The position numbers and the translations under genes were made by a program. Source: a virus. From it: DNA of 31,533 bases. Of this stretch, positions 16,222 to 31,533 are shown one piece after another; positions within the stretch are counted from its first letter, which is position 1; each line of letters begins with the position of its first letter. The stretch spans positions 1 to 31,533 of the IMG/VR virus record IMGVR_UViG_3300044705_000158; one strand, written 5' to 3'. Below the pieces are notes generated by a model, which saw only the letters and a list, made by a program, of their open reading frames with translations, did no database searches and was not told where the DNA came from.

Positions 16222-17603
16222 GTCTCGTCGCCCGGATCGCGCGCGGCCCGCAGGCCGAGGTGATGCCGCTCCCCTTCGGCGAGTGGGTCGAGTACTTCAC
16301 CTACGGCAACCAGATCTACGGAGCGCCGCTCAACCAGACCCTCGTCGGCAACAAGCAGCGGGTCACGCCGAACTTCCTCGGCCTCTCGCAGACCGCGTAC
16401 AAGCAGAACGGGATCGTGTTCGCGCTGATCATGACGAGGACGATGCTGTTCAGCGAGGCCCGCTTCCAGTACCGGTCGCGGGAGAACGGCCGCCCCGGCG
16501 ACCTCTTCGACGGGCCCGGGCTGGAGCCGCTCGTGCATCCCTGGAACGGCGCCACCACCGCCGACCTGCTCGCCCTCGCCGAGTGCGACGCCTCGGTCGC
16601 CGGCAACTTCTTCTGCGCCCGCCGCGGCGACGGCCTCCGCCGGCTCCGGCCGGACTGGACGACGATCGTGCTCGGCTCCAACACCGACCCCGGCGTCGAG
16701 GGGTACGACATCGACGCCGAACCGATCGGCTACATCTACCAGCCCGGCGGCCAAGCATCCGGCGAGGAGCCCGAGTTCCTGCTGCCGGAAGAGGTCGCGC
16801 ACTACATGCCGCTGCCCGACCCGGTCGCCCCCTGGCGCGGCATGAGCTGGCTACAGCCGGTGATCACCGAGATCCTCGCCGACAAGGCCGCCCAGGCGCA
16901 CAAGCTCCGCTTCTTCGAGGCCGGAGCGACCCCGAACCTGCTCGTCTCGCTGCCAGAGGCCGACCCGGAGAAGTTCGAGCGGTGGCGGCAGATCTTCGCC
17001 GACCAGCACGAAGGCACCAGGAACGCGTACAAGAGCCTCTTCCTCGGCGCAGGCGCCGACGCGAAAGTCATCGGAACCGACCTCAAGAGTCTCGACTTCC
17101 GCGCCGTCCAAGCCTACGGGGAGACGCGCCTCGCCGCCGCCGCCGGCGTGCCACCCACGATCCTGGGACTGGTGGAGTCGCTGTCGGGGCGCGGCCTCGA
17201 CCAGCCGACCTACGAGTCGGCGATCCGCCGCTTCGGCGGCCTCACGATCCGGCCGCTGTGGCGGAACTTCTCCGGGTCGATGGCACGGATCATCGAGGTG
17301 CCTGAGAACGCGGAGCTCTGGTACGACGACCGCGACATCCCCGCCCTGCAAGCGGACGAGCAGGACGCCGTCACGGCCACCCAGACCCGGACCGAGTCGA
17401 TCGCGTCGCTGCTGATGGCCGGCTTCGAGCCGGACGCCGTGATCGCCGCGGTCGCCGCCGACGACATCACCTTGCTCGAGGGCAGCCACACCGGTCTGCC
17501 GTCGGTGCAGCTCCACCCCAAGCCGGCGCCGAATGGCAATGGCGACGCCCAGCACGCGGCCGCGGTCGCCGCGCTCGACCACCTCATTGGAGACGAGTCT
17601 TGA
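16218..17603 (+). CDS. Portal protein, 461 aa
   Basis: Starts at GTG 16218 in a GTGA overlap. The sequence fits HK97-type portal proteins: TAYKQNGIVFALIMTRTMLF near the N-terminus, AHKLRFFEAGATPNLLVSLP (residues 228-247) and LRAAAAGVPPTILGL-like text (ETRLAAAAGVPPTILGLVES, about 303-322), with AIRRFGGLTIRPLWRNFS near 336. The R/K-F-F-E-x-G-A-T-P-N segment is a hallmark of actinophage portals. It forms the dodecameric ring at one capsid vertex through which DNA passes. Part of this segment is copied in the next gene. The stop overlaps the next start by four bases. Confidence 0.95.
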   Translation: MSLVARIARGPQAEVMPLPFGEWVEYFTYGNQIYGAPLNQTLVGNKQRVTPNFLGLSQTAYKQNGIVFALIMTRTMLFSEARFQYRSRENGRPGDLFDGPGLEPLVHPWNGATTADLLALAECDASVAGNFFCARRGDGLRRLRPDWTTIVLGSNTDPGVEGYDIDAEPIGYIYQPGGQASGEEPEFLLPEEVAHYMPLPDPVAPWRGMSWLQPVITEILADKAAQAHKLRFFEAGATPNLLVSLPEADPEKFERWRQIFADQHEGTRNAYKSLFLGAGADAKVIGTDLKSLDFRAVQAYGETRLAAAAGVPPTILGLVESLSGRGLDQPTYESAIRRFGGLTIRPLWRNFSGSMARIIEVPENAELWYDDRDIPALQADEQDAVTATQTRTESIASLLMAGFEPDAVIAAVAADDITLLEGSHTGLPSVQLHPKPAPNGNGDAQHAAAVAALDHLIGDES

Positions 17604-20596
17604 GAGACGCCCAGATCATCCGTTACGTCCGGGACACCGCCTGGGCGATTCATCCGGCCAAGCTGCCGACGATCCTCGACCTCGTCGCCCTCCACGCCGC
17701 CGGCGTCGAGCTGTCGGAGGAAGAAGTCGAGGAACGGATCCAGGCAGCCCGCCGCGACCGGGCGACCCTGCAGCCCTCCCAGGGCTCCGTCGGTGTTCTC
17801 CCCTTGACCGGGGTGATCGTGCCGCGGGCCGGCCTGATGACCCAGATCTCCGGCGGCTGCTCGCTCGACACCTGGTGCCAGGACCTCTATTCGCTGCTCG
17901 CCGACCCGAACGTCGGCGCGATCGTCCTCGACGTCGACAGCCCCGGCGGCTCCGTGGACATGGTCCCCGAGACAGCCCAGGTGCTCCTGTCGGCGCGTAA
18001 GCAGAAGCCGATCGTCGCCGTCGCCAACACCGAGGCCGCCTCCGCCGCCTACTGGCTCGCCTCCTGCTGCAGCGAAGTCGTCGTCACCCCTTCCGGCCAG
18101 GTCGGCTCGATCGGCGTCTACTCGGCCCACCAGGACATCAGCCAGATGGAGGAGGCCGCCGGCATCAAGACCACTCTCATCTCCGCTGGCCGCTACAAGA
18201 CGGAAGGGTCGCCGTTCGAGCCGCTCTCCGACGAGGCGAAGGCCGCGATCCAGGAGCAGGTCGACACCTACTACGGCATGTTCGTGCAGGCGGTCGCCGC
18301 CGGCCGGAACACAAGCGGACAGGCCGTGATCGACGGGTTCGGGCAGGGTCGCATGGTCACCGCCGAGGACGCGGTCAAGGAGGGGATGGCTGACCGGGTC
18401 GCGACGCTCTCCGACACCGTCGCTCGCCTCCAGGACGACCAGCCCGGCGGGGCTGCCCCCACGCGGCGCCGCCGCGGCGCCGAGCGCTCCGAGGGCGTCG
18501 CTGTCACCTCGCTCGCCGGCGGGAACAAAGTTCGCTTCTTCGAGGGGGGCGCGACCCCGAACATGCTCGTCTCGCTGCCCGGCTGCGATCCTGGCGGCCC
18601 GAACGCTCTGCTGCTCCCCTTCGCCCAAGGCGACGTGAAGGTCACCTTCGCCGCCGATGCGGCGTTTGCGGGCGCGATCGCGCCGCACTCGACCGGGGTG
18701 ATCGATGAGCCGTGGGACGGCCCCGGCCAGGTCGCCGCGCTCGACTCGCCGGTCACGAAGACGCGCGGGATCGGCATGTTCGCCTGGTTCGACTCGAATG
18801 GCGACGACCCGGACGGGGACGGCTACCCGGACGCCAAGGACGACTGGAAGTTCCCGCACCACAAGGTCACCGACGGCGATCCGGGCCCGGCGAACGTCAA
18901 CGGCGTCCGCAACGCGCTCTCCCGGTTGACCGACTCGAAGATCCCCGAAGGCGACAAGGCGGGCGTCCGCAGGCATCTGCAGCGGCACCTCGACGACTTC
19001 GACCGCAACAGCAAAGGCAGTAGCACGGCGACGCCCGTCGTGGCTGCGGCTGCCGATAGCAGCAGACCAGACACGAGACCCGTGGCGCCAGCCCAGGAGG
19101 AGAACCAGATGAAGACGATTGAGGAGCTCGCCGCACGCCAGGACGAGATCCGTGCCCGCCAGGAGCAGCTCGACGCAGAGTTCGCTGGCGCCATGTTCAG
19201 CGACGAGGCCCGCGCGGAGTTCGACCAGCTGCAGGCGGAGTACGAGAACCTCGTCGTCACGATCGCCGACATCAAGCAGCGCAAGGCGACGCTCGCCACC
19301 AAGGCGACGAAGCCGAACGCGACGCTGCCCGGCGACGGCCCGCGCCAGCCCCTGCGCGGCGCGTTCTCTTCGAACGTCGACTCGAAGATCCCCGACAACA
19401 TCTGGGACCTCTCCGCCTACCGGACCCTCGCCGGCTCGGTCGACGAGCTCGCGCGCCTCTACCGCGACGGCGCCCGCCGTGCCGTCGAGATCGCGCACTT
19501 CCCCAGCGAGCTGGTCAAGGCGGAGGACGCCAAGGCGCATGTCGAGGAACTGCTCCTGCGCGACACCGCCGACGGCCTTGTCGCCCGCCACGTGCTCGTC
19601 ACCGGCAAGGAGCAGTACCGGCGCGGCTGGTCGAAGGCAGTCAGGGGCCTCCCGATCACGACGGACGAGAAGCTCGCCCTCGACATGTACGCGCTCACGA
19701 TCGGGACGCCCTCCGACGGTGGATTCGCGATCCCGTACACCCTCGACCCGACGGTGATCCTCGCCTCGAACGGTGCCGTCAACCCGATCCGGCAGATGGC
19801 ACGCCAGGTCCAGATCGTCGGGCACCAGTGGCTCGCCGTCACGACCGCCGACGGCGTCGTCGCCTCCTACGGGCCCGAGCTGCAGGCAGCCTCCGACAAC
19901 AGCCCGACCCTCGCCCAGCCGACGCTCGAGGTCGAGAAGGCGCAGGCGTTCGTGCCGCTCTCGATCGAGGCCTCGCAGGACTGGGTCGGAGTAGAGGCCG
20001 AGCTCGCGAAGCTCTTCGCGGACGCCAAGGACGTTCTCGAGGCGACGAAGTTCATGAGCGGCGCCGGCCACGCAAGCCACGAGCCGGAGGGTCTGCTCAC
20101 TTTCCTCGTCGCGAACAACGCGACGAGCGAGGTACTGACCGCCGCCGTCGCAACGTTCGCCCGCGACGACATCTACTCGCTCGAGAACGAGCTCGCGCCG
20201 CGGTTCGAACCGAACGCCGCCTGGCTCGCGAACAGGGCGTTCTACAACGCGGTGCGCTCGGTCACCGACGACACGTTCAACATCTTCATCCCGATCCAGG
20301 AAGGCACCGGGAAGTCGATGGGCGGCAACACCGGTTACAGCCTCCTCGGCTACCCGGCATGGCGCACCTCGGCGATGACCTCGCAGATCGACGTCACCGG
20401 CCACCAGGTCGCGATCCTCGGCGACTTCGAACAGATGGTCGTGATCGACCGGATCGGGATGAGCGTCGAGTTCATCCCGCACCTGTTCGATACAGGCACC
20501 GGCTACCCGATCGGGTCGCGCGGCCTTTACTGCTACTGGCGCAACACGACCGGCGTCATGACCGCGAACGCGTTCCGCTACCTGCAGGTGCAGTAG
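17600..20596 (+). CDS. Fused prohead protease (S49-type), scaffold segment and major capsid protein, 998 aa
   Basis: One uninterrupted frame from TTG 17600. Residues 60-290 are an S49/SppA-type protease: IVLDVDSPGGSVDMVPETAQ, then the nucleophile in AASAAYWLAS (S148) and the base in GRYKTEGSPFEP (K200). Residues 312-326 copy the portal segment. Residues 345-500 look like a prohead-protease tail: HSTGVIDEPWDGPGQVAAL, a Ca-site-like DSNGDDPDGDGYPDAKDD (398-415), then NVNGVRNALSRL and HLQRHLDDF. From M504 on there is a coiled-coil delta-like region and an HK97-type major capsid protein (GGFAIPYTLDPTVI, FIPIQEGTGKSMGG). An internal AGGAGGAG sits eight bases before ATG 19109 (M504), so capsid protein of about 495 residues may also be made separately. 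Processing by the protease is expected. Confidence 0.9.
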   Translation: MRDAQIIRYVRDTAWAIHPAKLPTILDLVALHAAGVELSEEEVEERIQAARRDRATLQPSQGSVGVLPLTGVIVPRAGLMTQISGGCSLDTWCQDLYSLLADPNVGAIVLDVDSPGGSVDMVPETAQVLLSARKQKPIVAVANTEAASAAYWLASCCSEVVVTPSGQVGSIGVYSAHQDISQMEEAAGIKTTLISAGRYKTEGSPFEPLSDEAKAAIQEQVDTYYGMFVQAVAAGRNTSGQAVIDGFGQGRMVTAEDAVKEGMADRVATLSDTVARLQDDQPGGAAPTRRRRGAERSEGVAVTSLAGGNKVRFFEGGATPNMLVSLPGCDPGGPNALLLPFAQGDVKVTFAADAAFAGAIAPHSTGVIDEPWDGPGQVAALDSPVTKTRGIGMFAWFDSNGDDPDGDGYPDAKDDWKFPHHKVTDGDPGPANVNGVRNALSRLTDSKIPEGDKAGVRRHLQRHLDDFDRNSKGSSTATPVVAAAADSSRPDTRPVAPAQEENQMKTIEELAARQDEIRARQEQLDAEFAGAMFSDEARAEFDQLQAEYENLVVTIADIKQRKATLATKATKPNATLPGDGPRQPLRGAFSSNVDSKIPDNIWDLSAYRTLAGSVDELARLYRDGARRAVEIAHFPSELVKAEDAKAHVEELLLRDTADGLVARHVLVTGKEQYRRGWSKAVRGLPITTDEKLALDMYALTIGTPSDGGFAIPYTLDPTVILASNGAVNPIRQMARQVQIVGHQWLAVTTADGVVASYGPELQAASDNSPTLAQPTLEVEKAQAFVPLSIEASQDWVGVEAELAKLFADAKDVLEATKFMSGAGHASHEPEGLLTFLVANNATSEVLTAAVATFARDDIYSLENELAPRFEPNAAWLANRAFYNAVRSVTDDTFNIFIPIQEGTGKSMGGNTGYSLLGYPAWRTSAMTSQIDVTGHQVAILGDFEQMVVIDRIGMSVEFIPHLFDTGTGYPIGSRGLYCYWRNTTGVMTANAFRYLQVQ
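19095..19111 (+). promoter_or_regulatory. Internal ribosome site and start for the capsid part
   Basis: AGGAGGAG (19095-19102) precedes the in-frame ATG 19109 at ideal distance, exactly where the protease/scaffold segment ends and the capsid N-terminus (MKTIEELAARQDEIRARQEQ) begins. It would allow capsid protein to be made in large excess over the fused protease. Confidence 0.65.
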
Positions 20597-23298: not shown

Positions 23299-26200
23299 AT
23301 GGCGACCTTGACCAAAGTGCTCCTGGGCGTCGCCACCGACCCGGGGACGTGGTCGTTCACGGCCGGCAACGGCGCCGTCGGCACAGAAGGCGTGACCGGC
23401 GACTCCGACACGGTCGCCGGCGACACGGCCACCACCTGCCTGCAAAGCGTCCTCACCGGCAAGAGCAAAACCTCGAACGGGAACGTCTGGCAGTGGGCCG
23501 GCACCTGGGAGAACCTCGGTATCCCGGCCGGCTCCGTCATCTCGCAGGTGCAGCTGATCTACGACTGGCGGATCTACAGCGCCGCGACCGCGTCCGCGAC
23601 GCAGCTTGGCGCAGACACCCTCAACGACTCCGGCGGCACCGCCCAGGGAACCTTCAACGCGGGCGCCTCGGAGGGGACGGCCACCACCGCGTGGGCGACC
23701 AGGACCGGGGCAACGCTCAACGTCCCCTCGGCGCTGCAAGCGTCGAACAGCTCGATCCAGATCCGGCTCGGGTCGAACCTCGCGACCGGTAGCTCGAACT
23801 CCGCGTCGATCGGCTTCCACCAAACCTACGTCCAGATTGTCATCACGTACAGCTTCCCGGTCGCCGGGACCGCGTCGATGCCTCTCGCGCTGAGCAAGGC
23901 GCTCGCGCAGACCGCGACCAAGACCGACGAGACGATCCAGGGGCTGGCGCAGGCTGTGGCCGACCCGCTCGAGCTGCGCAAGGGGCTCGCGCAGACGGAT
24001 GCGATGCCGGTCGTGCCGAGCCAGGCGCTCGCGCAGACGGCGAGGCTGCCCTCCGAGACGCTGATCGCGCTATCCGTGACGGCCGCAGATTCGCTCGAGG
24101 CGGGAAAGGGGCTGGCGGCGACCACAGTGGAGCGCCTCGAGGCCTTGCGAGCGCTCGCTCCGGTCGCCGGCGACCCGTTGGAGTCGATCGCAGCTGTCAG
24201 GGTGACATCGACCGAGCCGGTCGAGGTGCTGCAATCGATCGCTGTCGGGCCGATCATCTTCGGCCGCAGCTCAACCAGTCCAGTCGGCGCCCCGGACGAG
24301 TGGGACGGCCTGGTCGTCGCGCAGAGGACACTGGCCCAGACCGCGCTCTTCACTTCCATGTCGGCGCGCCTGGAAGCCGACATCGGGACGCAGGTCAGGG
24401 GAGTTGTCTACGCCGACGCGGGAGGCAACCCCGGCACGCTACTCGGCTACACGGCGGTCAGCGCGATTCCCGTCAGCGACTGGGTCACGATGGCGCTGGT
24501 CGCCCCTCTGGTGCTGGCCCCCGGGAGCTACTGGATCGGCGTCTACCTGGACGGATTCACCACCAGCGACATCCCGATCAGCGGCGCCCTGTCTCCAGCC
24601 AACCGGATCCGCCGCGGCGTGTCGATCGGCGCGTACGGCTTGCCGCCCGATCCGTTCGGAGTCCCTGACAACACGATCCAGACGAACGACTACCTCGTCT
24701 ACCTGAGCGGCGGCTATCCGTTCCTGCCGCTCGAGAGCCTGCAACAGGTCAAATCCTCCGGCATCACAGGCATGCGCGCCGAGACGCTACTCGGCGCCAC
24801 AGCCGCCGGCTCCGAGCCGCTCGAGTCGCGGGGGACCGGGGCGGTCGCCCAGACCGCGACGCTCACCCTTGAGGCCGGCGCTGGACTGTCGACAACAGAG
24901 CCGCTGCCTGTCGGGACGCTCCGGGCGATCGCCGCGTTCGCGAGTCTGCTCTCCGAGACACTGAAGGCGATCGGGGCGGTAGGGCCGCCGCTACCGGAGG
25001 AGACGGTCGCCAGCGCGGCGGATACTGCAGCGAGCCGTGTGGAGGCGGCCGCGGCGATCGCGTCGACGATACAGTCGAGGCTGGAGGCACTGACGGCGGT
25101 CGCCGCGACCGACGCTGCCACGGCAGAGGCCGGGCACGGGTTGAGCCTGTCGTCGACCGGTCAACTCGACAGCCAGCAGAGCCTGGGCTGCGTGGGTTCG
25201 CTGCCGGCGGAGGCTGTGCGCGGGCTGGCTATGGCCGTGTCGCTGGTCGCGGCGTCAATGAGCAGCCTCTCCGTTCCGGCTAACAGCGGCCTCGAGGCTA
25301 CACGCGGCCTCGCCGCCACGGCGCAGCAACCAGCCGAGTCGCTTCTCTTCCTGGCCGCAGTCACGCGGGCCGTTGTCGACGTGTTGCAAGAGAGCGCCGC
25401 GGCGGCCAGCGGCGAGGCTGAGACGCTCGGCGGCCGGTCGGCGCCGGCCGGTCAATCAGTGGACGCCGCGGCCGCGGTCAATGGGTCGCGTCTACAGCCG
25501 GTCGAGTCGCTGCTCACGGCGGCCGCGAACGGTCGGCTGCCCGGTGAGACCGTCCAGGCGATCGTGATCGCAGCCGCAGCAGCCGCGGAGACGCTCGCCG
25601 GTCGAGCAGAGGCCACGAGTATGCCGTCGGACTTCCAGCAGCGGCTCACGGTCACGTCGCCTGGGGTAGCAGAGTCGCTCGAGGCGACCTCGTCCGTGGT
25701 CGGCTGGCCGGCAGAGACGCTGCTCGGCCTCGCGGCGGTCGCCGTGCTCGGCGCATCGACCGTGCAGGGTGTTGTCGGGTCGGCCGGGGTTCGGGGGGAG
25801 GCGCTGACCGCGGTTGCCGTGGCGGCGGCTGGTCCTGTCGCTTCGCTTGAGGGGACCGGCGTCTCGGCCGTCGAGATCGCCGAGTCACTCGCGGGCGTGG
25901 CTGCGACAGGGGCAGAGCCGGTTGACACGCAGGGTCAAACCGGTGTCACACAGACCGGGGCGTTACCGCTGGAGACGGTGCGAGCGCTCGCCGTCGCGGC
26001 CGCAGAAGCGGTTGATGCGGTGAGTGACGTGGCCGTGTCGGCCGGTGAGCGGCTCGAAGCTCTGCAGGAGCTGGCCGCCGGCGAGAACACCCTGCCGGTG
26101 GGATCGCTCCTTGGGGTTGCCGGCATAGACGCCGAGGCGAGCGAGACTGTCACGGCGGTCGCGGCACCGTCCGGCGCGCGGCTCGAGGCAACCCATGCGA

Positions 26201-27183
26201 TCGTGGCTGCGGTGCAGAGCGTGGCCGAATCGCTGCAGGAGCTCGGCGCGGCGGAGGTGTTCGAGGAGGAGGCGCTGGGGCTGCTGGTTTCTCGGGCCGT
26301 GACGGCGGCTGAGACTGTTCGAGCTGTCGCTGCGGCCGAGACGGCGCCGGCGGAGAGTCTGCGCTCGATCGTGGCTCTGGCCGCGACCGCGTTCGAAGCG
26401 GTCGAGTCGGTGGCGTCGGCGGCGGTGGACTTCCTCGAGTCGAGCTCGCAGACGAATCTTTCGCAGAGCGCGAGCCTTCCCGTCGAGGCGCCAGCCGCTC
26501 TGGCGGCCGAACTCGCCGCGTCGCTCGAAGCGATCACCAACCTCGCTCGCTCCGGTGGCGAGCAGGCGGAGATGCTCTCGAGGCTAGCAGCGATCGCCGC
26601 AAGCCTGTTAGAGCCGGTTGGCGGCTTACGCGCGGCGGATGCCGCATCTACGGAGACACTCGGCGCCTTGCGGACCTCGAGGGCCGAGCCGGCCTCGAGC
26701 GTGCAACCAGTCGCCGATGTACGCGAGGAGCTGGCCGAGTCAGCGGTCCGAGTCACTGCGCCCGCGCAGCCCGATCCGGTGCAAACGCTCAGCCGAATCG
26801 CAGGTCGAGCCGCCGAACCTCTCGAGGCGGCCACGAAGCTCGCGCTGCCACGACCGGAGCCGGCGGAGACTCTGCAACCGGTCTCCTCCAGGGCTGGTGA
26901 CGCTCCGGCGGAGATCCTGACGCGCCTCGCCGCGGCCGTGGCAGCCCCGGTGTCGATGCTGCGCCGCCTCGCCTCGACGGTGGCCGCCTGGTTTGAGACG
27001 CGCCGCCACGGGGCGACGGCCGGGATGAGCACGAGCGGCCGCACCTACGCGCCCACCCGCTCCACGGGCGAGGCATCGGCGAGGGCCGATAGCAGCGGCA
27101 CAGGCGCGGTCACAGGCGACGGAGAAACCGGCGCCCACACCGGCCCGGGAACTACGCACGCCGATGCCAGCCGCCGACTATGA
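23299..27183 (+). CDS. Giant repeat protein (about 62 copies of a 14-aa repeat), putative fibre, 1294 aa
   Basis: Starts at ATG 23299 after GGAGGGG. Residues 1-190 form a beta-rich N-terminal domain (WQWAGTWENLGIPAGSVISQ). Residues 196-316 and 478-1231 are made of a strict 14-residue repeat with consensus (A/V/L)-E-(S/T)-L-x-x-L-A-x-x-A-x-x-P: eight full units and a partial one in the first block, 53 in the second. Hydrophobic positions 1, 4, 8 and 11 fit two heptads per unit. Residues 317-477 are an inserted beta-sandwich-like domain (RGVVYADAGGNPGTLLGYTA, APGSYWIGVYLDGF). The C-terminus is Ser/Thr/Gly-rich. No enzyme motif. Its place between head completion and tail genes favours a head or neck fibre. 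It is not the tape measure protein, which starts at 30767. Confidence 0.85.
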   Translation: MATLTKVLLGVATDPGTWSFTAGNGAVGTEGVTGDSDTVAGDTATTCLQSVLTGKSKTSNGNVWQWAGTWENLGIPAGSVISQVQLIYDWRIYSAATASATQLGADTLNDSGGTAQGTFNAGASEGTATTAWATRTGATLNVPSALQASNSSIQIRLGSNLATGSSNSASIGFHQTYVQIVITYSFPVAGTASMPLALSKALAQTATKTDETIQGLAQAVADPLELRKGLAQTDAMPVVPSQALAQTARLPSETLIALSVTAADSLEAGKGLAATTVERLEALRALAPVAGDPLESIAAVRVTSTEPVEVLQSIAVGPIIFGRSSTSPVGAPDEWDGLVVAQRTLAQTALFTSMSARLEADIGTQVRGVVYADAGGNPGTLLGYTAVSAIPVSDWVTMALVAPLVLAPGSYWIGVYLDGFTTSDIPISGALSPANRIRRGVSIGAYGLPPDPFGVPDNTIQTNDYLVYLSGGYPFLPLESLQQVKSSGITGMRAETLLGATAAGSEPLESRGTGAVAQTATLTLEAGAGLSTTEPLPVGTLRAIAAFASLLSETLKAIGAVGPPLPEETVASAADTAASRVEAAAAIASTIQSRLEALTAVAATDAATAEAGHGLSLSSTGQLDSQQSLGCVGSLPAEAVRGLAMAVSLVAASMSSLSVPANSGLEATRGLAATAQQPAESLLFLAAVTRAVVDVLQESAAAASGEAETLGGRSAPAGQSVDAAAAVNGSRLQPVESLLTAAANGRLPGETVQAIVIAAAAAAETLAGRAEATSMPSDFQQRLTVTSPGVAESLEATSSVVGWPAETLLGLAAVAVLGASTVQGVVGSAGVRGEALTAVAVAAAGPVASLEGTGVSAVEIAESLAGVAATGAEPVDTQGQTGVTQTGALPLETVRALAVAAAEAVDAVSDVAVSAGERLEALQELAAGENTLPVGSLLGVAGIDAEASETVTAVAAPSGARLEATHAIVAAVQSVAESLQELGAAEVFEEEALGLLVSRAVTAAETVRAVAAAETAPAESLRSIVALAATAFEAVESVASAAVDFLESSSQTNLSQSASLPVEAPAALAAELAASLEAITNLARSGGEQAEMLSRLAAIAASLLEPVGGLRAADAASTETLGALRTSRAEPASSVQPVADVREELAESAVRVTAPAQPDPVQTLSRIAGRAAEPLEAATKLALPRPEPAETLQPVSSRAGDAPAEILTRLAAAVAAPVSMLRRLASTVAAWFETRRHGATAGMSTSGRTYAPTRSTGEASARADSSGTGAVTGDGETGAHTGPGTTHADASRRL
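23884..26991 (+). repeat. 14-residue (42-base) protein repeat array, interrupted by one domain
   Basis: Codons for the repeat units of the giant protein: 23884-24246 and 24730-26991, split by 24247-24729. Most units are exactly 14 residues; variants of 15 or 16 occur, the longest carrying a Q-T/S-x-x-x-Q-T/S-like insertion before L-P or L-T. In the second block 53 units with the listed extra residues add up exactly to the 754 residues present. DNA copies are too diverged to be a recent tandem duplication. Confidence 0.9.
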
Positions 27184-28953: not shown

Positions 28954-29376
28954 ATGGGCAAGTTGATCGCTCGCGACGTGAAGCTCGTCGTAGCTGGCGT
29001 GGACCTCTCGAGCCACGTGCAGGACATCGACACGCCGGAGAAGTGGAACAACATCGACGTCACCGGGATGGGAGCCAAGTTCATGGAACGGCTGCTCGGC
29101 ATCGGCGACTTCAGCGTGCCGACGACGTTCTTCCAGGACTACGGCGCGGGGAGCGTGCACGCGACCCTGCAGCCGCTCGCCGGGTCGAACACGCCGTTCA
29201 AGGTCGAGATCACCCCGGTCAAATCGCTTCCCGTCGGCGCGACGAACCCGCGCTTCGTCTTCTTCGCAGTCCTCGACGGGTACACGCCGGTCAAGGGCAA
29301 GGTCGGCGAGGCCTCGACGATGCAGGTGACGTTCTACAACGCCGAGCAGAGCGGCGTCCTCATCTACACCACTTAA
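28954..29376 (+). CDS. Major tail (tube) protein, 140 aa
   Basis: Starts at ATG 28954 with GAGGAG upstream. The beta-rich sequence has KLVVAGVDLSSHVQDIDTPE, WNNIDVTGMGAKFMERLLGI and DFSVPTTFFQDYGAGSVHAT, followed by NPRFVFFAVLDGYTPVKGKV and STMQVTFYNAEQSG. The layout, size and position (after terminator and before completion and chaperone genes) match actinophage tail tube proteins, which polymerise into the tail pipe. No Ig-like extension. Confidence 0.88.
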   Translation: MGKLIARDVKLVVAGVDLSSHVQDIDTPEKWNNIDVTGMGAKFMERLLGIGDFSVPTTFFQDYGAGSVHATLQPLAGSNTPFKVEITPVKSLPVGATNPRFVFFAVLDGYTPVKGKVGEASTMQVTFYNAEQSGVLIYTT

Positions 29377-29386
29377 GAGACGAGCC

Positions 29387-29830
29387 GTGGACACCGGTCC
29401 ACGGATGTACGTCGCCGCGGTGATCACGCTCCAGTACGAGGGCCTGCGCGAGCTCGCGCAGGCCCTCCACGAAGTCAACGTCGGCCTCTATGAGGCACTC
29501 CTGGCCGGGCTGCGCGAGGTCGGCGAGGTCATCCGCGGGGAGAGCGCACGCCGGTTCCTCGACTACGGCGCAAGCGAAGGCCGCGAGGCGTCGTTCGCCA
29601 GGGGGGCCGACGGGCTCGGCGTCCTCGTCCGGCCGAACACCTCCCGGATGGCGATCGTCTCCGTCGCCCAGACGGTGCGCCGCAGCGGCGACCTGGGAGC
29701 CCGCCGCTCGAACTTCGGCGACCTGATGATGCGTAAGGCGCTCATCCCCGCACGCCGTGACGGTCTCGACGAGGCGGCGGCCCTCCTTGACAGCGAGGTC
29801 GCCGACCTGCTCCACGAGCACGGCTTCTGA
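29387..29830 (+). CDS. Tail-completion / HK97 gp10-like protein, 147 aa
   Basis: Starts at GTG 29387; ATG 29405 is an alternative. It contains YEGLRELAQALHEVNVGLYE and ALLAGLREVGEVIRGESARR, the L-R-x-x-x-x-x-I-x-x-x-A-R-R pattern of HK97 gp10-like and other minor tail proteins, then GREASFARGADGLGVLVRPN and a beta region. The end is helical (LDEAAALLDSEVADLLHEHG). It probably binds tail tube ends during assembly. A 440-base gap follows. Confidence 0.75.
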   Translation: MDTGPRMYVAAVITLQYEGLRELAQALHEVNVGLYEALLAGLREVGEVIRGESARRFLDYGASEGREASFARGADGLGVLVRPNTSRMAIVSVAQTVRRSGDLGARRSNFGDLMMRKALIPARRDGLDEAAALLDSEVADLLHEHGF

Positions 29831-29889
29831 GATGATCTTCTGACTTCACCTGCAGGCAAGCTTGCTCGGACCACGGCCCCGGACGCCAC

Positions 29890-29925
29890 GGTTTTGGACC
29901 ATGCCACGGCGACTGGTCCAAAACC
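29890..29925. terminator. Perfect 12-bp inverted repeat, probable bidirectional terminator
   Basis: ggttttggacca (29890-29901) and tggtccaaaacc (29914-29925) form a perfect 12-base stem with a 12-base loop, A/T-rich for this genome. It lies after the tail gene ending at 29830 and next to the stop of the antisense open frame at 29938, so it fits a terminator read from both sides. The rest of the gap from 29831 to 30269 has no plus-strand gene I can support. Confidence 0.7.
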
Positions 29926-29937
29926 CTTTGGAGGCGC

Positions 29938-30219
29938 TCAGACGGGGCGCTCTAGCGCGATCCGGACAGTGCGCTTCGAGACCGGTCTACCGTTCACTCT
30001 GAGGCCTTCCGACGTCGCCATCACAGCGAGATTCCGCTCGCTCGCGTGCGTTGTTTCGTACAACTCACGGATCCGGTGCAGGACGCTCTCCCAGTCCTGC
30101 GAGGCCTCGCTGCGCGTCCGGCCACCTAGGGGAGCCCAGCGGCCGAGCCAGCGCTGCGCGCTCTCACCTGAAGCACGCTCGATTCTCGCCCGGGCGAACG
30201 GGCCCCCGGGAGAGCTCAG
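29938..30219 (-). other. Antisense protein-like open frame without a clear start
   Basis: On the minus strand a frame ending at TGA 29938 stays open into the next gene and reads like a protein: ARIERASGESAQRWLGRWAP, QDWESVLHRIRELYETTHAS, then AVMATSEGLRVNGRPVSKRT. The last part resembles a helix-turn-helix. Most third positions are G/C. No ATG, GTG or TTG start gives more than about 41 residues (TTG 30063); CTG 30219 would give 93. It could be a moron-type gene with unusual start or the remnant of one. The hairpin at its 3' end suggests transcription. Confidence 0.3.
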
Positions 30220-30269
30220 CCCGATTGGCGTGGCTGATAGCGGCCACCGGATAGGAGGAGAACGCGAAC

Positions 30270-30704
30270 ATGGCAGACGACGAGCGGCCTGGCTTCAAGA
30301 TCCAGGGGACCTTCTACCCGTGGGTCGGATTCGACGACTGGTTCCTCCCCGACTGCCGCCTCGCCCGTCTCGTCACCGGGTTCACCGAGACTCAGCTGCT
30401 CCGCGGCCAGGCGTCCAGCACGCTCGTAGAGGCCGCCTTCGCAGCCGTCGCGTTCCGTCAGGCCAGCCCCGGCCTGTCCGTCGAAGAGGCGGCGAGGATC
30501 TTCGACGCGCTCAAGCCCGGCCAGATCGAAGCCGTCGGGTTCAAGCCGGTGAAGGCTGATGATGCCGACCCCCCGGACGAGAGTGGGAGCACACCCTCCG
30601 AGAGTGGCGAGCTCTCGTCGGATGCGCCCCCGGAGACGTCCCCCCAGACCAGCTCCACGGACCAGCCTGGGCCCATTACTTCGGATACCGCAGAGAGGAC
30701 ATGA
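30270..30704 (+). CDS. Tail assembly chaperone G, 144 aa
   Basis: Starts at ATG 30270 with AGGAGG upstream, inside GATAGGAGGAG. The helical N-terminal part (IQGTFYPWVGFDDWFLPDCR, LARLVTGFTETQLLRGQAS, FDALKPGQIEAVGF) is the kind found in the first of two tail assembly chaperones, as in lambda gpG. The C-terminal 40 residues, Ser/Pro/Asp/Glu-rich, are an unstructured tail made when ribosomes do not shift. A -1 shift at 30569-30575 gives the longer product. It binds tape measure protein during tail tube assembly. Confidence 0.85.
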   Translation: MADDERPGFKIQGTFYPWVGFDDWFLPDCRLARLVTGFTETQLLRGQASSTLVEAAFAAVAFRQASPGLSVEEAARIFDALKPGQIEAVGFKPVKADDADPPDESGSTPSESGELSSDAPPETSPQTSSTDQPGPITSDTAERT

Positions 30705-30766
30705 GCACCCAGCTCACTGTCCGCGGCTACCTCGACCACCTCAAGTTCCTGCCCAAGGAGAAGTAG
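30270..30766 (+). CDS. Tail assembly chaperone GT (-1 frameshift product), about 165 aa
   Basis: Joined product: codons 30270-30575, then the -1 frame from 30575 to TAG 30764-30766. The -1 frame opens just after a TGA before the slippery site and encodes REWEHTLREWRALVGCAPGD, then PAWAHYFGYRREDMSTQLTV and RGYLDHLKFLPKEK. The W-x-H-Y-F-G-Y-R-R-E-D-M motif is the usual end of GT products in actinophages. GT bridges G subunits and tail tube protein on the tape measure protein in lambda-like assembly. Confidence 0.85.
30569..30575 (+). promoter_or_regulatory. -1 frameshift slippery site C CCC CCG
   Basis: Six C then G (30569-30575). Frame 0 reads CCC CCG; shifted frame reads CCC CCC. Pro-Pro pairing is kept after a one-base backward slip. 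It sits immediately after a TGA in the -1 frame and directly before the open T region, as in other G/GT genes. Confidence 0.8.
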
Positions 30767-31533
30767 GTGCCTCGCGCGCTGATCGACGTCGTTGGTGACA
30801 GCGCGTCGGCGCTGCGTGCGCTGGATCAGGTTGAGGCGTCTGTCAGTGGGCTGACGGGGAGCCTCGACCGGTTGGCTGCGACGGCGGACGCCTCGGGCGG
30901 CGGGGTGGCGGCGGCGTTGGCGAAGGAGTCGGCGGGGTTCTCGGAGTTGGCGGTGAACGCGGAGCGGTCGACTGCGGCGATCGTCGCGGCCTCGGTGACG
31001 CGGGCGGACCGGTTGAAGGCGGAGGCGGTGGCGGCGAGGGAGCTGTCGACGTCGTATGCGTTCGGGTCGGCGGAGCAGATCGCCGCGACGAACCTGTACG
31101 AGCGCAGGATCAGCCAGATCGCCCGCGTGCAGGGGACGGCCGGCCTCACCGCCGACGAGGCCGCCCAGCTGCAGGTTTCGGCGACGATGCGCCAGGTCGC
31201 CGCCCTCGACACCGAGGCCGCCGCCTACGGCAGGGTCGCCGAAGCGGCGGCGGGGGCGGCCGCCAAGATCGCTGCCGCGAACGCCGCCCAGGCGGCGGCG
31301 AACAGGGACCGGCTGCTCGGCGTCGAGGCCGCGACCTCAACGCCGTCGATGACGCAGACCGCGGGCACGATCGGGCGCGGCCTGACCACGTATGTGACCG
31401 CGCCGACGGCGTTCATCGGCTACGAGGCGGTCAAGCAGGCCGTCGATTTCAGCCAGGCGATCCTGCTGATCCGCACCCAAGCCGGCGCCTCCGAGGCGGA
31501 GCTGGAGCGGATGAACCACGACGTGCTGCAGCT
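30767..31533 (+). CDS. Tape measure protein, N-terminal part (cut by window end)
   Basis: Starts at GTG 30767, immediately after the GT stop, with AAGGAG ten bases upstream. About 255 residues are visible and the frame runs off the end. The sequence is Ala-rich and helical (SALRALDQVEASVSGLTGSL, VTRADRLKAEAVAARELSTS), then reaches AVDFSQAILLIRTQAGASEA, a typical tape measure motif (I-x-T-Q-A-G-A-S). It sets tail length and is ejected into the host during infection. Codon style changes near 31080: before it G-ending and T-containing codons, after it C-ending codons, suggesting a recombination joint. Confidence 0.9.
   Translation, partial: MPRALIDVVGDSASALRALDQVEASVSGLTGSLDRLAATADASGGGVAAALAKESAGFSELAVNAERSTAAIVAASVTRADRLKAEAVAARELSTSYAFGSAEQIAATNLYERRISQIARVQGTAGLTADEAAQLQVSATMRQVAALDTEAAAYGRVAEAAAGAAAKIAAANAAQAAANRDRLLGVEAATSTPSMTQTAGTIGRGLTTYVTAPTAFIGYEAVKQAVDFSQAILLIRTQAGASEAELERMNHDVLQ

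Follow-up and report, generated by a model that had tools for sequence, protein, structure and literature searches.

A candidate tail-chaperone -1 frameshift at C_CCC_CCG in a phage fragment, with a slip position kept among related loci

The 31,533-nucleotide stretch of viral DNA analysed here (the window) ends in the beginning of a tape measure gene, and two overlapping reading frames lie directly in front of it. Together they raise the question of whether ribosomes pass from the first frame, G, into the second, T, by a -1 programmed frameshift on a run of six Cs. The original prediction, made from the letters of this DNA, had called the locus a clear case of such a frameshift for tail assembly chaperones. 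Here we compare the locus with its relatives and weigh the frameshift against other explanations.

The G/T locus and its predicted products

The window carries, in order, genes for terminase, portal, a protease-capsid fusion, adaptor, tail terminator and major tail protein, followed by the start of the tape measure gene. The G/T pair sits between the genes for the major tail protein (phrog_4574) and the tape measure protein (phrog_4704; Table 1). By tblastn, the major tail protein of the window matches tail proteins of Rhodococcus and Pontimonas phages. One small ORF and then a gap of 439 bases separate its gene from G; an ORF resembling the small one also stands 5' of G in two of the relatives described below, L112 and L009.

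Table 1 Features of the G/T locus, with positions in the window.
Feature	Position	Strand	Basis
Major tail protein gene, upstream landmark	28954..29376	+	phrog_4574, E 5.7e-12
Conserved ORF between major tail protein gene and G, function not known	29387..29830	+	
AGGAGG, likely ribosome-binding site of G, 11 nt 5' of the ATG	30253..30258	+	read from the sequence
G, predicted zero-frame tail assembly chaperone ORF, 144 aa	30270..30704	+	phmmer to L112, E 8.4e-28
TGA TGA closing the -1 frame 5' of the slip site	30557..30562	+	sequence
Slippery heptamer C_CCC_CCG, zero frame GAC CCC CCG	30569..30575	+	identical in L112; C_CCC_CCA in L009
T, -1-frame extension, 63 aa (30575-30763) and TAG stop (30764-30766)	30575..30766	+	
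AAGGAG within the end of T, probably the ribosome-binding site for the tape measure gene	30755..30760	+	read from the sequence
Tape measure protein gene, GTG start, continues past the window end	30767..31533	+	phrog_4704, E 9.3e-06

G comprises 102 amino acids to the end of the slip codons, followed by a tail rich in Ser, Pro and Thr. The zero-frame codons around the heptamer read ...GAT GAT GCC GAC CCC CCG GAC GAG..., and C CCC CCG lies exactly where it had been placed. The -1 frame, which the original prediction described as opening directly after a TGA, follows two of them and is open from 30563, 6 bases 5' of the heptamer. Its translation is CRPPGREWEHTLREWRALVGCAPGDVPPDQLHGPAWAHYFGYRREDMSTQLTVRGYLDHLKFLPKEK, closed by a stop. 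The sequence W-x-H-Y-F-G-Y-R-R-E-D-M is present in T as described, followed by 20 residues where about 20 had been announced, and its designation as a typical T-domain ending holds within the window's own G/T family. Joining the two parts yields a predicted GT of 102 + 63 = 165 aa, the previously proposed size, as computed from the sequence. The T frame contains no ORF of at least 30 aa with an ATG, GTG or TTG start, and its conserved part has no start of its own.

Within the 47-codon G/T overlap, C_CCC_CCG is the sole in-phase X_XXY_YYZ. At least one heptamer appeared in 16% of trials with random codons drawn from virion genes, and in 57% of trials in which codons were re-drawn for the same protein. 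Across the 4,445 codons of the ten virion genes, 7 in-phase heptamers were counted, a rate at which 47 codons would be expected to hold about 0.07; no C_CCC_CCN is among the 7. A second six-C run in the overlap (30640-30645) has a different phase and no counterpart in L112. Taken alone, the heptamer in the window sequence is weak evidence for a frameshift and suggestive only, and the case is therefore made on conservation in relatives and not on the single sequence. The word 'clear' was too strong for that single sequence.

Three further stretches of the window were recorded as observations in their own right. The 439 bases in front of G (29831-30269) hold no convincing gene; at this place L112 has about 14 bases and L009 about 10. 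A perfect 12-bp inverted repeat (29890-29901 / 29914-29925) lies in the stretch, and on its minus strand a frame stays open for 109 codons with no significant family match; the stretch looks like an insertion. Between the head-tail adaptor and the tail terminator lies an ORF of 1,294 aa (23299-27183) with no sequence match in PHROGs, Pfam or the PDB; L009 offers no space for a counterpart between its portal and tape measure genes. The third stretch, a minus-strand reading frame open for 1,090 aa (17210-20482), runs antisense to the gene for the protease-capsid fusion and is probably a high-GC shadow frame.

Slip position and coding frame among relatives

Because G and T have no usable match in named phage records (50,697 phage records searched), relatives were sought through the capsid, portal and tape measure genes. 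They were reached through the capsid and portal genes and through the tape measure N-terminus, the latter giving 29 loci. A heptamer filter passed 20 of these 29 and found none in the remaining 9; several of the passes look spurious, for example L133, L134 and L136. We retained the window and those loci whose G or T matched a joint profile, resulting in seven G/T-related loci: the window, L112, L009, L113, L116, L115 and L125. Since the joint profile derives from the very loci it selected, it provides no independent test. L111 duplicates L112 (identical across 4,276 shared bases), L114 and L009 are one contig, and L117 was taken as a copy of L116, their identity being assumed. In L009, a minus-strand open frame (17494-17990) with CxxC...CxxCHKK lies between T and the tape measure gene; by eye it is HNH-endonuclease-like, and it has no Pfam match above the cut-off.

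Other searches added little. Viral contigs scanned singly with G, T or the major tail protein gave no relatives, and a viral scan with the G proteins of the window and L112 returned only two contigs that were already known. The G proteins of L116, L115 and L112 likewise found no match in the 50,697 phage records. A match in Curvibacter phage TJ1 (E 1) was dropped, as it lies on the strand opposite to the annotated genes there. The G profile A7, run with no positive control, so that its empty results carry no weight, matched 0 of 396 genomes drawn from the phylum and 0 of 296 from the class of an Acidimicrobiia MAG; among 18 portal-bearing genomes a single one matched, with E 0.006. By hhalign, with E-values for single comparisons, G links the window and L112 to L113 and L116 at 85%, and T links them to L009, L115 and L125 at 82%; the other links are weak.

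All seven G/T-related loci lie a short way 5' of a tape measure gene. The closest relative of the window is L112, whose G is 55% identical and which matches the window with 163 bits in the major tail protein, 95.9 bits in G and 47.5 bits in T (phmmer against the fetched loci, T E 9.5e-13; for G see Table 1). It carries C_CCC_CCG at the homologous place, with TGA TGA before the heptamer as in the window, and the heptamer is contained in a 20-base block, GATGATGCCGACCCCCCGGA, that is identical in both; its predicted GT has 167 aa. In L009, whose portal is 66% identical, TGA TGC CGG precedes C_CCC_CCA, and the predicted GT has 169 aa. The looser relatives L113 and L116 have C_CCU_UUG as their slip site. 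In L115 and L125, also looser relatives, the sequence aligned to the L009 heptamer is C_CCU_CCU, which is not a full heptamer; this site is not independent evidence, because it was placed by alignment. The P-site codon is CCY with a preceding C in all seven loci. Comparing slip sites across relatives had been proposed as a check on the original prediction. In this comparison, the arrangement and the slip position are conserved across the seven loci, two of them (L115, L125) without a full heptamer, and the heptamer sequence varies; a differing slip position, which had been named as speaking against the frameshift, was not seen among them. A codon-identity test at the slip codons gave p of about 0.06, which is not significant.

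Whether T is a coding frame was assessed by comparing translations of the three frames from the slip site to the T stop in 21 locus pairs, each expressed as a z against shuffled scores. For the -1, zero and +1 frames, respectively, z was 20.4, 4.9 and 8.1 in window/L112; 10.6, 2.1 and 0.8 in L112/L009; 34.1, 13.2 and 11.4 in L009/L115; 58.8, 14.6 and 17.2 in L113/L116; and 54.5, 16.5 and 14.6 in L115/L125. The -1 frame is also top in L112/L115 and L009/L125, with z of at least 10 in all seven of these pairs. It is top but weak (z 3.4 to 4.6) in window/L009, L112/L116, L112/L125 and L009/L116. In the other 10 of 21 pairs, including the window with L113, L116, L115 and L125, the -1 z is below 3 and the sequences are too distant to judge; L009/L113 is one of these, and there the -1 frame is slightly exceeded by the other two. 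Close pairs also have zero- and +1-frame scores beyond chance, as overlap between frames would lead one to expect. At proline pairs, CCC/U followed by C is described as promoting +1 shifting (part of PMC8129111), but a +1 shift was dropped as a candidate: T lies in the -1 frame, and the +1 frame, open throughout T in the window, L112, L009 and L113, is broken by 2 stops in L116, 1 in L115 and 3 in L125.

Substitutions point in the same direction in two pairs of relatives. Before the site they concentrate at the zero-frame wobble position (53/105 in L113/L116, 34/93 in L115/L125), and 3' of it at the -1 wobble position (21/53 and 15/37, respectively). No such switch of phase is present in window/L112, where the overlap has changes at 16/43, 16/43 and 13/42 positions and the -1 wobble is not favoured; 3' of the G stop, changes fall on 5, 8 and 11 of 19 positions, zero-frame third positions being top (11/19 vs 8/19). 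L009/L115 has no clear switch. For window/L112, dN (0.52) and dS (0.49) of T are about equal, and the +1 frames are identical at 21 of 42 residues in the overlap. Since this pair lacks a phase switch and its dN is close to dS, we base the coding status of T on the substitution pattern in the relatives and on similarity in the window. Selection on the T frame is thus evident in the relatives and mixed for the window/L112 pair alone.

Proposed mechanism, stimulators and alternative explanations

We consider it highly probable, at roughly 90%, that an ordinary lambda-type G/GT tail-chaperone -1 frameshift would take place at C_CCC_CCG. Gene order, a T without a start codon and a slip site kept in relatives support the original reading of the locus as a tail-chaperone frameshift. 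The majority of ribosomes would translate G to its stop at 30702-30704. In a minority, tRNA-Pro on CCC in the P site and on CCG in the A site would move back one base to CCC CCC, and these ribosomes would continue to 30763 and yield GT; both the slippage and its rate are predicted. By analogy with lambda, G would act as a chaperone coating the tape measure protein; recruitment of the tail tube protein would be an additional task of GT. In E. coli, with a strong stimulator, 61 of 64 heptamers shifted at more than twice the background, and C_CCC_CCG is not among the three failures in the passages concerned (PMC4066793). The same passages count C_CCC_CCC among the efficient heptamers and describe less shifting for mixed purine/pyrimidine ZZN codons such as CCG and CCA (PMC4066793).

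The downstream fold in the window is not unusual (z -0.05 and -0.03), and no strong Shine-Dalgarno-like element is present 5' of the site; the anti-SD pairing of -3.6 kcal/mol is equalled by 41% of gene windows. Stronger downstream folds occur only in L112 and L009 (z to -3.8), and strong anti-SD pairing only in L113 (3097-3105), L116 (3071-3079) and L125 (3491-3499), 6-15 bases 5' of the slip site. These SD-like stretches are possibly stimulators or by-products of acid-rich codons, and we give them little weight because such codons yield GAGG by chance. As the folds and the SD-like stretches occur in different loci, stimulators are not shared, and a common 3' stem or 5' SD, neither of which is found in the window, was dropped.

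Because neither kind of stimulator was found at the window site, we considered whether the pause comes from the peptide, with diprolyl stalling tuning tail-chaperone frameshifting. Stalling on polyproline is described as modulated by the residue preceding the motif (part of PMC4176338). The slip codons encode D-PP-D in the window, D-PP-E in L112 and G-PP-A in L009, and Pro-Pro is kept in L115 (V-PP-T) and L125 (I-PP-T) despite C_CCU_CCU, which is not a full heptamer. Against a role of the diprolyl stand the Pro-Leu at the site in L113 and L116 and the fact that any C6 heptamer forces Pro-Pro. We regard such peptide control as unlikely; if it were true, tail-chaperone frameshifting would in turn be tuned by host EF-P.

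The frame could instead be changed elsewhere in the overlap, if slippage in the P site occurred at one of two other CCC codons, 30627-30629 or 30642-30644, the latter being part of the second six-C run. Both are C runs within the overlap, and slippage on a C_CCY tetramer is documented in E. coli (passages of PMC4066793), but neither site gives an in-phase X_XXY_YYZ. The second run is CGCTCCCG in L112 and hence not kept, and T-frame similarity begins far 5' of both sites, which makes a shift at either place very improbable. Still less credence is due to the readings with no frameshift, in which T has a separate start inside G, such as ATG 30701-30703, or the -1 frame is untranslated. An ATGA overlap is a common coupling signal, and one at 30701-30704 does place a -1-frame ATG on the G stop. 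A start there, however, would give only 21 residues and miss most of the conserved T block; moreover, this ATG is absent at the G stop of L112, and -1-frame conservation begins just 3' of the heptamer.

Homopolymers are where indel errors fall, so a C lost or gained in the run during assembly or sequencing could have split one continuous gene. The six-C heptamer, however, recurs in L009 and in L111/L112, contigs whose two metagenome numbers differ from that of the window, and the same -1 step occurs in four more relatives at sites other than C6; we judge an error of this kind to be the least probable of all the explanations. RNA polymerase, rather than the ribosome, might slip on the C run, as a run of identical bases is required for either. 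The kept position reads C_CCU_UUG in relatives and there offers no long run, and transcript slippage is described on longer A or T runs, against which six Cs are short (part of PMC3711429), so polymerase slippage has only a slim chance of being the cause.

Comparison with known tail-chaperone systems

G and T of the window have no significant match in PHROGs, Pfam or NCBIfam, and the G/T proteins of the relatives tried have none in PHROGs. The structural model of G (pLDDT 77) has chain 3d8l, Lactococcus phage p2 ORF12, as its top PDB chain in both Foldseek and VIA-align, a likeness that is not significant (Foldseek E 1.7; VIA Z 3.4, rmsd 4.2 over 65 residues). We take this ORF12 to be a tape-measure chaperone. 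In BFVD, no match of the G model reached E 0.001 or below, the best being an uncharacterised phage protein at E 0.012. The model of T has pLDDT 63 and pTM 0.40.

In gene position, the pair equals the joined-gene tail chaperones of actinophages such as Rhodococcus phage Jflix2 and Gordonia phage Mcklovin. The major tail protein of Jflix2 is related to that of the window, and G of the window is not detectably related to the joined chaperones by tblastn. The lambda G/GT slip site is G/A-rich, and the suggestion that slipping on a C run is rarer than at such sites fits our sample. C-only heptamers occur only in the window, L112 and L009 among the G/T loci checked, and in none of 11 cultured phages examined from major tail protein to tape measure. 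Mcklovin has G_GGA_AAC plus an overlapping A_AAC_CCC, phiPsal1 has A_AAA_AAA, and Jflix2 has a G_GGT_TTC; the other 8 of 11, including REQ1, Shagrat and Madraxi, have no in-phase X_XXY_YYZ in the -1 overlap. The chaperone overlap of Shagrat, REQ1, Madraxi and Jflix2 (L002-L005) was also observed to end in a TTCTACTTCCGCCTAG-like stretch, three of the four being without a standard heptamer.

We found no paper naming C_CCC_CCG as a phage tail slip site in a search that covered few subscription papers. PRFect, applied to actinophage genes from SEA-PHAGES data, lists 'six' as one of eight backward slip motifs (PMC10885494). Read as six identical bases, 'six' fits the run in the window; 'threethree' is another PRFect motif, and the main-text passages do not name C_CCC_CCG (PMC10885494). 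The slip sequence is uncommon within the sample examined, and its kind is already known.

As a whole, the locus adds a G/T family that PHROGs, Pfam and NCBIfam do not contain, and a natural C-only -1 heptamer, well supported by the comparison of loci, where A- or G-rich sites are usually named. The slip position is fixed and the heptamer drifts around it (C_CCC_CCG, C_CCC_CCA, C_CCU_UUG, C_CCU_CCU), the P site being C_CCY throughout. This is useful for tools that annotate high-GC phages, and provides a small natural series for asking why C runs slip backward and not forward. The general picture of tail-chaperone production is unchanged. In lambda, a -1 shift is described as giving GT as a minor product, which connects the tape measure and tail tube proteins (part of PMC5009743). 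The window resembles that system in its short G, its -1 T extension, a slip near the end of G and the proposed tape measure and tail tube role, and differs from it in its slip codons, Pro-Pro on a run of Cs.
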